DNA of 64,000 nt from Natrinema sp. CBA1119 (lineage in GTDB: Archaea > Halobacteriota > Halobacteria > Halobacteriales > Natrialbaceae): assembly GCF_002572525.1 (NCBI RefSeq), contig NZ_PDBS01000001.1, forward strand, positions 1,488,001-1,552,000, written 5' to 3'. Both the position numbers and the translations under genes were made by a program. Below are positions 29,018 to 36,011 of this stretch, one piece after another. The notes under the pieces were generated by a model. That model saw only the letters and a list, made by a program, of their open reading frames with translations, was not told the origin of the DNA and ran no database searches. Every line of letters starts with the position of its first letter. The first letter of the stretch is position 1.

Positions 29018-29040
29018 CCCACCCCTTCGTTTCGAGTGGA
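29018..29040 (-). repeat. ORB-like element 1
   Basis: Reads CCCCTTCGTTTCGAGTGGA on the plus strand behind a C-string; the minus strand gives TCCACTCGAAACGAAGGGG followed by the G-string. This matches the haloarchaeal Origin Recognition Box pattern. Confidence 0.75.
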
Positions 29041-29346: not shown

Positions 29347-29380
29347 GTTCCACCCGAAACGAAGGGGTGGGGGGGGGGTC
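29347..29380 (+). repeat. ORB-like element 3 with long G-string
   Basis: GTTCCACCCGAAACGAAGGG followed by GT and ten consecutive G residues. This is the clearest ORB here and faces elements 1 and 2 across the low-GC block. The long G-string is the feature described as specific to halophile ORBs. Confidence 0.82.
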
Positions 29381-29581: not shown

Positions 29582-29973
29582 CGATCTTCAAAACCACTCG
29601 ATTAGACGGATATTCCCCTTCCAAATCACTCCTCCAATAAAGCTCACGCATACGAAAACAAGATATACAAAATTAGTAATCCGGACTCTCGGCGAGCTGT
29701 TCGCTCCGACTGCTGGTCCCACGGAGCCAATACGTCAGTGATCTCTCCGAACGATTCACGGCTCGATCGTCCGCAACCGATGTCGATGTCCCGGCACGGA
29801 GCGCGGGGAAAGGAAGAATTTATTAGCGTGGTTTTCCTCTGTTTCGTTTGCATCAACTGGACCCGAACCGAGAAACTGAAACAGTGAATCCTCCCACGGA
29901 GGCCATAATACGATGATATTCCTGCTTCCCGGTTCGACACTCCACACGAAATAAGGGGGCTAGTATACGACGG

Positions 29974-31806
29974 ATGTCAGACGACAACTCAGATATCGAC
30001 GGGTCAGACGAGGTCGAGATCGACGGAACGAGTGGATTCTCGACGAATCTCGAGAAAGCGGACCTCGATGACGAGGAGTCGAATCAGGGGCTGTTCGATG
30101 ATCTTCTCAGCGGCGAACCAATCTTCGAGAACAAGGAAGTCCTCCGTCCGTCCTATACCCCACACGAACTGCCCCACCGGAGCGACCAAATCAACAAGAT
30201 GGCGACGATCCTCGTCGCCGCACTCAGGGGCGAAACGCCGTCGAACATCCTCATCTACGGGAAGACCGGGACCGGCAAAACCGCAAGCGCGAAATTCGTC
30301 AGCAAGGAACTCGAGAGCACCTCGCAGAAGTACAGCGTCCCGTGTGACGTCGAGTACATCAACTGCGAGGTCACCGATACGCAGTATCGCGTACTCGCAC
30401 AACTCGCGAACAAGTTCATCGAAAAGAACGAAGAGCGGATCGACGAACGCGTTGCGGAACTCGAATCGCTGCTCGAGGCCCTCGACGAGTACGATGCCGA
30501 TCTGGAGGCCCGCGAACGTGAGGCGGCCAAAGCGTCCGATTCGACCGATCTGGTAGACGATCAGACGGCGTCCGATCCGTTCGATTTCGTTTCTGACGAC
30601 CCACAAGAATCGATTGCTGACGATTCACCTGGAGACGATAGTAGCCCCGAGTCGGCCGATTCTCCACCCGAAAAGGAGGGGTCTTCGGATCCCGCCGATC
30701 GTTCGAGTCCCACCGACGGCACTGATCTGACGGACGGCGACAGTACCGATCGGACAGACGGCAATAACACCGATCGGGGAACCGGCGACGGCACCGATGA
30801 CGCGTCGGCTGGCGATTCGTCGACGCACCCATTGGACCATCCCCTCGAGTCGACGTCGTTCGAGGACCGCGAGGCGATCGAAGCCGAAATCGACGACCTC
30901 GAGGCGGACAAGGAGTCCTTCGAGGAGGTTCCGATGACCGGCTGGCCGACCGACCGGGTCTACAGCGTCTTCTTCGATGCGGTCGACTACGACGAGCGGG
31001 TCGTCGTCATCATGCTCGACGAGATCGACAAACTCGTCGAGAAAAGCGGCGACGACACGCTCTACAACCTCTCGCGGATGAACTCCGAACTCGAGAACTC
31101 GCGGGTGTCGATCATCGGTATCTCGAACGACCTGAAGTTCACCGACTTCCTCGATCCGCGGGTCAAATCCTCGCTGGGCGAGGAGGAGATCGTCTTCCCG
31201 CCGTACGACGCGAATCAGCTGCGGGATATCCTGGAACACCGTTCCGACGTCGCGTTCCAAGGGGGTGCGCTTTCCGACGACGTCATCCCGCTGTGTGCGG
31301 CCTTCGCCGCACAGGAACACGGCGACGCGCGCCGCGCGCTCGATTTGCTTCGAACGGCGGGCGAGCTGGCCGAGCGATCGCAGGCCGAGACGATCGTTGA
31401 AGATCACGTCCGGCAGGCCCAGGACAAAATCGAACTCGATCGCGTCGTCGAGGTCGTCCGTACGCTCCCCACGCAGAGCAAGCTCGTGCTCTTCTCGATC
31501 ATCCTGCTCGAGAAAAACGGCGTCCACAGCATCAACACGGGCGAGGTGTTCAACATCTACAAGCGCCTCTGCGAGGAGATCGACGCGGACGTGCTGACCC
31601 AGCGTCGGGTGACGGACCTCATCAGCGAACTCGACATGCTCGGCATCGTCAACGCCGTCGTCGTCTCGAAAGGTCGGTACGGTCGGACGAAGGAAATCAG
31701 TCTCTCCGTTCCACTCGAAGAGACGGAGGCCGTGTTGCTTTCCGACTCCCGTTTGAGCGATATCGACGACATTCAGCCGTTCGTTCAGGCCCGGTTCGAG
31801 AACTGA
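29974..31806 (+). CDS. orc1: Orc1/Cdc6 replication initiator
   Basis: 610-residue initiator that binds ORB elements and loads the MCM helicase. Walker A GKTGTGKT is at 96-103 and Walker B with MLDEID at about 347-352; sensor 1 follows (IIGISNDLKF), and the C-terminal winged helix contains the LISELDMLGIV region. Between about 186 and 305 the AAA+ domain is interrupted by a long Asp/Ser/Thr/Pro-rich linker, making the protein about 200 residues longer than compact archaeal Orc1 proteins. The ATG at 29974 has an AT-rich box (GAAATAAG) at about -27. Location beside the ORB-containing spacer marks it as the cognate initiator. Confidence 0.95.
   Translation: MSDDNSDIDGSDEVEIDGTSGFSTNLEKADLDDEESNQGLFDDLLSGEPIFENKEVLRPSYTPHELPHRSDQINKMATILVAALRGETPSNILIYGKTGTGKTASAKFVSKELESTSQKYSVPCDVEYINCEVTDTQYRVLAQLANKFIEKNEERIDERVAELESLLEALDEYDADLEAREREAAKASDSTDLVDDQTASDPFDFVSDDPQESIADDSPGDDSSPESADSPPEKEGSSDPADRSSPTDGTDLTDGDSTDRTDGNNTDRGTGDGTDDASAGDSSTHPLDHPLESTSFEDREAIEAEIDDLEADKESFEEVPMTGWPTDRVYSVFFDAVDYDERVVVIMLDEIDKLVEKSGDDTLYNLSRMNSELENSRVSIIGISNDLKFTDFLDPRVKSSLGEEEIVFPPYDANQLRDILEHRSDVAFQGGALSDDVIPLCAAFAAQEHGDARRALDLLRTAGELAERSQAETIVEDHVRQAQDKIELDRVVEVVRTLPTQSKLVLFSIILLEKNGVHSINTGEVFNIYKRLCEEIDADVLTQRRVTDLISELDMLGIVNAVVVSKGRYGRTKEISLSVPLEETEAVLLSDSRLSDIDDIQPFVQARFEN
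30662..30682 (+). repeat. ORB-like element inside the orc1 linker
   Basis: CTCCACCCGAAAAGGAGGGG within codons for SPPEKEGS. It keeps the TCCACCCGAAA core and GGGG end of element 3 in the spacer, on the same strand. It lies in the disordered linker, where the protein tolerates almost any sequence. Confidence 0.55.
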
Positions 31807-32129
31807 GGGAACTGACGACGGCTCCGTTCAACACTGTGGCGCTCCCACCAATAGTGGAAGCGATACCGCTGGACGCTGAGTCGATCACGGGCGACACCGG
31901 CTTTTTCAGCGTTTGCTGATCGTCAACTCGTTCTCGAGCGAGTCCTCCAGCCAGCAGACACCGTTCACGCGTCCCGTTCGTCACGTTCTGCTCGCGATAG
32001 AGGCAATGGATCGACAGTGTTTCGCCCCTTCGTTTCGACTCGAGAGAGCGTTGAAAGCTCGGTGGAGGGAGTTCGGGAAAGAGCGCTTGCGTTCGAAAAC
32101 GACCGCTCGAAACGGCTCGCGGTTGGGGC
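31807..32129. other. Spacer downstream of orc1 with one ORB-like element
   Basis: 323 bp between the convergent orc1 and signal peptidase genes, no gene seen. At 32023-32046 the plus strand reads CGCCCCTTCGTTTCGACTCG; its complement CGAGTCGAAACGAAGGGG is an ORB-type sequence with a short G-string. The rest of the spacer has no clear structure. Confidence 0.55.
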
Positions 32130-34142: not shown

Positions 34143-34373
34143 TGACCACCGGTTTCTCCGAACCCGGTATCAACTTTCCGGCAAACTTCGGACTGCTTTC
34201 ACGTACAGACGCCGGAAGCTGCCGATTCCACAAAACGGCTGGAACGGCCGGAGTTCGTGAGCGGACGGGAGCGCGACCGGAACCGGCCCCGTCCCTTTCG
34301 AACCGATCGGAAAACCGACGCGGGGAATCGGGGATTCGCTATCCTTTTGCCGTCCCTCGCGAATGCGGGGTAT

Positions 34374-36011
34374 GTGCCACTCGAGGCCGCTGCCCGACTC
34401 GTTAGCGAACTCACGAGCCGCGGCTACAACGCCGAACGCGAGGCGGTGACACGGCTCGCGGCGGCCGAGGATCCGAACGCCGCACTCGAGCGCGTCCTCG
34501 AGGACGTTCCGAACGATGCGCTCGTCGTCCGGGCCGATCACGTCGAGTCGGTCCTCTCGCGGAGCGACACCACCGGTTCGCCTCGAACCAACGGCTCCGA
34601 TACTGGCGATTCCGTCGAATCGGGTACCACGAGCGTCGGGAGCGAAACGGCGGGGCGCAACGCCACTCGAACCGATGCGTCGTCCACCGATTCGACCCCC
34701 TCCGTTTCAACTGGAACCGAACGTGCCTCGGGGGGTGATTCGCCCGATCGATCTCCAGTTGAAACGGAGGGGTCTTCCCCAGCGAATCGTCTCGCCGATC
34801 CTGCGATCCGTTCGCTCGAGATCACCGGGGATATGACGGGTGAAAGCACGGGGACCGGCGAGTACAGCGATTTCGTCTCCGTCTTTCGGGACCGCCTCGA
34901 GCGGCTCGGAGCGAAATTACGAGGCCGGGTCAATCACCGCCCTGCGACGGCCATTCAGGGAATGCCGGGCGGGAGCGACGCCGCGATGGTCGGCCTGGTC
35001 AACGACATCCGATCGACCGCCAGCGGCCACTGGCTGATCGAACTCGAGGACGCGACCGGGACCTTCCCGTGGCTGGTGATGAAGGATCGCGAGTACGTCG
35101 ATCTCGTCGACGAACTGCTCTGCGACGAGGTGGTAGCGATGGAGGGGACGCTGGCGGACGATTCGGGAATTGCGTTCGTCGATTCAATGTACTTCCCGGA
35201 CGTGCCCCGCACGTACGAGCCCTCGACCGCGGATCGCCACGTCCAGGCGGCCCTGATCAGTGATGTCCACGTCGGCAGTCAGGAGTTCATGGCCGACGCG
35301 TGGAACGCCTTCGCCGACTGGCTCCACACCGAGGAGGCCCAGCACGTCGAGTACATGCTGCTCGCGGGCGACATGGTCGAAGGTGTCGGCGTCTACCCGG
35401 ATCAGGACGAGGAACTCGACATCGTTGACATCTACGAGCAGTACGAGGCGTTCAGCGAGCATCTCAAGAAGGTTCCGGGTGACATCGAGATCGTCATGAT
35501 CCCCGGCAACCACGACGCGGTTCGGCTCGCGGAGCCCCAGCCCGGGTTCGACGAGGAACTCCGGGAGATCATGTCCGCTCACGACCCACAGATCGTGAGC
35601 AACCCGTCGACGGTGACCCTCGAGGGGGTATCCGTCCTGATGTATCACGGCGTCTCGTTGGACGAGGTGATCGCGGAACTGCCCGAGGAGAAGGCAAGCT
35701 ACGACGACCCACACAAGGCGATGTACCACCTCCTCAAGAAGCGCCACGTCGCCCCGCAGTTCGGCGGCCACACCCGGCTCGCACCCGAAGAAAAGGACTA
35801 CCTCATCATGGAGGAGGTTCCCGACATTTTCCACACCGGTCACGTTCACAAACTCGGCTTCGGGAAGTACCACAACGTGCTCGCGATCAATTCCGGCTGC
35901 TGGCAGGCCCAGACCGACTTCCAGAAGAGCGTCAACATCGACCCCGATGCCGGCTTCGCGCCGATCGTCGATCTCGATACGCTCGACGTGACGGTACAGA
36001 AATTCAGTTGA
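34374..36011 (+). CDS. polD1: DNA polymerase D small subunit (DP1)
   Basis: 545 residues. The N-terminal domain starts MPLEAAARLVSELTSRGYNAE, a Ser/Thr/Glu linker runs from about 70 to 150, then an OB fold (HWLIELEDATGTFPWLVMKD) and the metallophosphoesterase domain: LISDVHVG, GDMVEG, IPGNHD, YHG and HTGHVH. That domain supplies the 3'-5' proofreading exonuclease of the archaeal replicative PolD. The GTG at 34374 is preferred because upstream in-frame codons are Arg-rich and an AT-rich box (TATCCTTTT, 34341-34349) lies at the leaderless distance. The linker DNA carries an inverted ORB-like pair, listed separately. Confidence 0.93.
   Translation: MPLEAAARLVSELTSRGYNAEREAVTRLAAAEDPNAALERVLEDVPNDALVVRADHVESVLSRSDTTGSPRTNGSDTGDSVESGTTSVGSETAGRNATRTDASSTDSTPSVSTGTERASGGDSPDRSPVETEGSSPANRLADPAIRSLEITGDMTGESTGTGEYSDFVSVFRDRLERLGAKLRGRVNHRPATAIQGMPGGSDAAMVGLVNDIRSTASGHWLIELEDATGTFPWLVMKDREYVDLVDELLCDEVVAMEGTLADDSGIAFVDSMYFPDVPRTYEPSTADRHVQAALISDVHVGSQEFMADAWNAFADWLHTEEAQHVEYMLLAGDMVEGVGVYPDQDEELDIVDIYEQYEAFSEHLKKVPGDIEIVMIPGNHDAVRLAEPQPGFDEELREIMSAHDPQIVSNPSTVTLEGVSVLMYHGVSLDEVIAELPEEKASYDDPHKAMYHLLKKRHVAPQFGGHTRLAPEEKDYLIMEEVPDIFHTGHVHKLGFGKYHNVLAINSGCWQAQTDFQKSVNIDPDAGFAPIVDLDTLDVTVQKFS
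34694..34773. repeat. Inverted pair of ORB-like elements inside polD1
   Basis: Two copies of TCCAGTTGAAACGGAGGGG, one on the minus strand (about 34697-34715) and one on the plus strand (34754-34772), identical over 19 bp and facing each other across about 38 bp. Each has the GAAACG core and G-string of the origin ORBs. They lie in codons for the disordered linker (about residues 107-134) of the polymerase subunit. Confidence 0.75.

Follow-up and report, generated by a model that had tools for sequence, protein, structure and literature searches.

For haloarchaea, origin recognition boxes (ORBs) and their G-strings have already been described, as has titration by ORB clusters downstream. In Haloarcula hispanica, the ORB cluster oriC2D has no origin activity but represses oriC2, for which titration of Cdc6E has been proposed, and it can be deleted only if oriC2 is removed as well (PMC3936714). 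The same paper cites datA of Escherichia coli, a DnaA-titrating locus. Earlier surveys of ORBs accepted only intergenic regions adjoining orc genes (PMC3528665), and no report of ORBs inside the coding sequence of polD1 or orc1 was found in the open-licence literature, most subscription journals being outside the scope of that search. Here, an inverted pair of ORBs is described within polD1, the gene for the small subunit (DP1) of DNA polymerase D, in a stretch of 64,000 nucleotides from Natrinema sp. CBA1119 (contig NZ_PDBS01000001.1, positions 1,488,001 to 1,552,000; the window). The reading we favour, with a probability of roughly 55%, is that Orc1 binds the pair, which as a satellite titrates or bridges the initiator and thereby restrains oriC1.

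The two 19-mers in polD1 are identical to each other and lie 38 bp apart with their TCCA ends facing inward, 5.7 kb from oriC1. The features, in window coordinates, are as follows.

34697..34715, minus strand: left ORB of the polD1 pair, TCCAGTTGAAACGGAGGGG on the minus strand, G-string outward; the pair is kept in 88/92 polD1 genes
34716..34753, no strand: interval between the polD1 ORBs, 38 bp, conserved in length and variable in sequence, G+C fraction (GC) 0.66
34754..34772, plus strand: right ORB of the polD1 pair, TCCAGTTGAAACGGAGGGG, G-string outward
34257..36011, plus strand: polD1, the host gene, with the pair within its hypervariable N-terminal linker

Both sites match TCCANNNGAAACGNNGGGG, the haloarchaeal ORB core comprising the GAAAC block and a terminal G-string, with 0 mismatches. 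The window belongs to a haloarchaeal chromosome of 4.09 Mb, for which genome-wide counts were obtained by pattern searches. TCCANNNGAAACGNNGGGG is matched perfectly at six places on it, all inside 96 kb: two at oriC1, two in polD1 and two satellites. The reversed pattern has 0 matches on the whole chromosome, and 100 shuffles of the window gave zero matches to the polD1 19-mer at ≤3 mismatches. The first-pass annotation had reported identical 19-mers facing each other at this place, and both are present with 38 bp between them, its positions being accurate to within 3 bp. The ORB identity and inverted geometry that it assigned to them are upheld by the sequence. The plus-strand copy codes for (S)PVETEG, as it stated, and the minus-strand copy falls in the peptide PSVSTG. 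An AlphaFold model of linker disorder in PolD1, built on an alignment of 12 sequences only, has a mean predicted local distance difference test score (pLDDT) of 36 and is uninformative.

Among 293 genomes of the order, 50 contain a match to the inverted-pair pattern and none a match to its reversed control, and every locus read from these matches (30/30) was in the polD1 linker. A set of 92 distinct polD1 genes was gathered by protein similarity, and hence without selection for the motif. The pair was found in 88 of these with ≤5 of its 28 fixed bases changed (67 at ≤2), and the starts of the two sites are 57 bp apart in 82 genes, 54 bp in 4 and 69 bp in 2. Retention in relatives had been named beforehand as the test on which the first-pass claim could fail, and the pair is retained. 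In a wider set of 115 polD1 genes, the standard deviation of length is 2 bp for the interval but 37 bp and 35 bp for the linker to the left and right of the pair, respectively, and 0/2300 codon-shuffled linkers from this set reached the pair threshold. A chance origin is ruled out by these shuffles together with those of the window and the reversed controls. The pair is present in about ten haloarchaeal families, with additional occurrences in families f3, f8, f13 and f10 (spacing 69 bp in f10). Degenerate remnants at exactly 57 bp were found in genomes of f7, f12 and f14, and for this reason the pair looks ancestral, with later decay. Among the members of the phylum sampled outside the haloarchaea, no polD1-type pair was detected save one match in genome G386, at locus L197, in which two inverted ORB-type sites are separated by a gap of 53 bp. 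In Halorussus (L171, L173 and L179), the internal polD1 pair is weakened and a perfect or near-perfect ORB, which is possibly a relocated site, lies about the polD1 stop codon, at +1693 to +1699 from the polD1 start.

The same conservation could be produced by the protein if the linker peptides (PSVSTG and SPVETEG) were the object of selection and the DNA likeness a by-product, and both peptides are indeed conserved in a reading phase that is constant across polD1 genes. However, at wobble positions that are fixed in the ORB the codons are GTT in 70/70 (frequency elsewhere in the gene 0.06), ACT in 79/79 (0.04), GGA in 81/81 (0.09), CCA in 82/82 (0.05) and GAA in 88/88 (0.26), and the right site is preceded by T in 87/88 genes, whichever of at least six amino acids (S, A, V, T, G and D) is encoded. 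At degenerate ORB positions the wobble base is free (TCN, GTY) and amino acids are replaced (V to P, A, L or D). Only four of the 426 polD1 codon columns scanned have a fixed rare codon, and all four are inside the two sites. Because rare codons are fixed precisely at the ORB-fixed wobble positions and vary only at degenerate ones, the pair is kept by selection on the DNA. The compared sequences are related and conservation counts are not independent, the argument being carried by breadth over genera and families. Selection for DNA rather than protein, which the first-pass annotation had suggested, is borne out by the wobble and rare-codon tests. A peptide motif as sole cause is ruled out by the former, and the peptide reading as a whole is highly improbable. 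A hairpin in the polD1 mRNA, to which the perfect 19-bp inverted repeat in this genome might point, is scarcely credible. Position by position, the left and right copies agree as often, or almost as often, as independent copies would, and since they vary independently, without covariation, a conserved RNA hairpin is contradicted.

The assignment of the pair to an initiator draws on the following sites in and around oriC1 and orc1.

29022..29040, minus strand: left ORB of oriC1, TCCACTCGAAACGAAGGGG
29349..29367, plus strand: right ORB of oriC1, TCCACCCGAAACGAAGGGG; the interval between the oriC1 ORBs is AT-richer (GC 0.48)
29941..29959, plus strand: ORB-like site 33 bp upstream of the orc1 ATG, TCCACACGAAATAAGGGGG
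29974..31806, plus strand: orc1, encoding Orc1/Cdc6, the oriC1 initiator (Cdc6_C, 113.7 bits)
30615..30633: weak inverted partner 48 bp upstream of the ORB in the orc1 linker
30663..30681, plus strand: ORB-like site within the orc1 coding linker, 1 mismatch
32025..32043, minus strand: ORB-like site downstream of orc1, 1 mismatch

One degenerate motif fits oriC1, the orc1 promoter site and the polD1 pair, and it was not found near the remaining orc loci of this genome. By its sequence, the polD1 motif is of the oriC1/Orc1 class and not that of a second initiator. The separate specificity class or second initiator raised in the first-pass annotation is rejected on these grounds. The differences from the oriC1 ORBs that had led to it do exist, but are confined to positions 5-7 and 14, where the ORB is already degenerate. 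An ORB with ≤2 mismatches lies at -26 to -35 from the ATG in 64/64 haloarchaeal orc1 genes (L109-L188). This site overlaps the expected promoter and suggests that orc1 may be autoregulated. The Orc1 of Natrialbaceae (L109-L156) contains a long insertion separating Walker A from Walker B. The DNA encoding this insertion usually carries an ORB (30663-30681 in this genome), which is often accompanied at 48 bp by a weaker inverted partner in which the TCCA/GAA half is retained and the G-string is gone.

Further ORBs cluster around oriC1. In 15 genomes, 42 perfect ORBs occur besides those of oriC1 and polD1, and 35 are within 125 kb of oriC1, where the uniform expectation is 6%, though relatedness of the genomes inflates any formal P value for this clustering. 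Two satellites recur in this genus, an intergenic one at ~31-38 kb from oriC1 and one at ~90-120 kb. At the nearer distance, a conserved intergenic ORB (G000:C1:1483085-1483103) has a weak inverted partner at 46-bp spacing, and relatives carry the corresponding intergenic satellite at L064, L066, L069-L071, L073, L075 and L076. At ~90 kb in this genome, an ORB tandem 96 bp apart occupies the divergent intergenic region between nmd3 and htpX (G000:C1:1426508-1426622, L005), and comparable tandems 97-99 bp apart were seen in other genomes of the genus. The polD1 pair is 4-38 kb from oriC1 in the other placed genomes and 156 kb in one. Copies of polD1 that no longer adjoin orc1 or oriC1 are 12, 19, 25, 28, 36, 37 and 38 kb from oriC1, or the 156 kb of that one genome, and these relocated genes all retain the pair, in weaker form in the two Halobellus genomes. 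In G020, polD1 and orc1-type ORB sites (G020:C1:1724993-1730005) are ~156-160 kb from the oriC1 pair (1885604-1885959) and are adjoined by a site of the 90-kb satellite type, as if a rearrangement had broken between oriC1 and orc1.

Restraint of oriC1 would operate through a predicted site for two inverted Orc1 molecules in the polD1 linker. This would be one of several satellites, the others being in the orc1 promoter, in the orc1 linker and at ~34 kb and 90-120 kb, that compete with oriC1 for Orc1. Because they are close to the origin, the satellites would be duplicated early, right after firing, and either free Orc1 would fall or Orc1 would bridge satellite and origin, and re-initiation would be limited in both cases. 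Simple titration does not account for the fixed spacing, which suggests a complex of two Orc1 molecules, bound cooperatively or as an Orc1-Orc1 bridge, rather than two independent sinks. Binding of Orc1 to the pair is what we infer from its ORB sequence, and, given this putative binding, titration is the best supported of the options listed in the first-pass annotation. As in a titration locus, the sites are outside the origin and, at 5.7 kb from oriC1, would be replicated early.

Several observations weigh against this reading. A titration locus is a dense cluster of sites, whereas polD1, albeit part of the wider satellite set, has only two, a small number beside the 11 ORBs in oriC2D. Titration alone does not by itself demand either a fixed spacing or a location in polD1, and retention after relocation could also reflect a role specific to polD1. 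Haloferax, Haloplanus and some further lineages are viable with decayed or half pairs, and Wu et al. set the control of oriC1, by a G-rich enhancer, against titration-type control of oriC2. A broader formulation, which we put forward tentatively, is that the pair may be a widely conserved cis-regulatory element of oriC1 in coding DNA, a fixed two-Orc1 site in polD1 (with a second in orc1 in Natrialbaceae) that would couple initiator occupancy to the copy number of the origin and to the replication-machinery genes.

A role in transcription would account for retention of the pair when polD1 moves from oriC1. Orc1 bound ~450 bp into polD1 would serve as a roadblock or regulator linking the supply of PolD to free Orc1, and the conserved ORB at -33 of orc1, where the promoter is expected, would act likewise on orc1. 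The satellites at -34 and -90 kb are also intergenic and upstream of genes. Transcriptional control is nonetheless unlikely as the explanation, as sites gather round oriC1 whatever the function of the genes, and the Halorussus ORB about the polD1 stop codon is unfit as an early roadblock. We consider it similarly doubtful that the role of Orc1-bound satellites is to bridge or organise the DNA around the origin, as in handcuffing or segregation, and that titration is a by-product. The fixed spacing of the pair and the recurring distances of satellites on the other side of oriC1 are consistent with such a higher-order role, but the distance between the polD1 pair and oriC1 ranges from 4 to 156 kb.

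The inverted polarity, with G-strings outward as in the oriC1 pair, could also indicate an accessory or dormant origin that loads MCM as oriC1 does. However, there is no AT-rich unwinding element between the polD1 ORBs, where GC is 0.66 in this genome and on average, equal to that of the linker, as against 0.48 at oriC1, and the 38-bp interval is short relative to the ~200-340 bp between oriC1 ORBs in the genomes scanned. An accessory origin, another option in the first-pass annotation, is therefore disfavoured and very unlikely.

oriC1 is the ancestral archaeal origin, and little is understood of how it is protected against re-firing. If Orc1 does bind the pair, haloarchaeal origin control extends to coding sequence, which a survey confined to intergenic regions would overlook. 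On the broader formulation above, the origin control circuit would include synonymous codons of a polymerase gene. polD1 is also a clear example of a predicted DNA-binding site dictating the sequence of a protein linker. Synonymous recoding that leaves the PolD1 protein unchanged offers a clean test of the pair.

Compared with the ORBs of oriC1, the polD1 pair is alike in its core (TCCA...GAAACG..GGGG), G-string and inverted layout with G-strings outward, and differs in a spacing fixed at 57, 54 or 69 bp. As in oriC2D, its ORBs lie outside the origin and close to the cognate orc gene, and there is no origin-like structure. However, the ORBs of oriC2D occupy 722 bp of intergenic DNA and their target is oriC2/Cdc6E (PMC3936714), whereas the polD1 pair consists of two sites in coding DNA, belongs to the oriC1/Orc1 class and extends over about ten families. 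Like datA, the pair would place initiator sites off the origin and so reduce free initiator, but datA serves another initiator family, and the polD1 pair lies in coding DNA.
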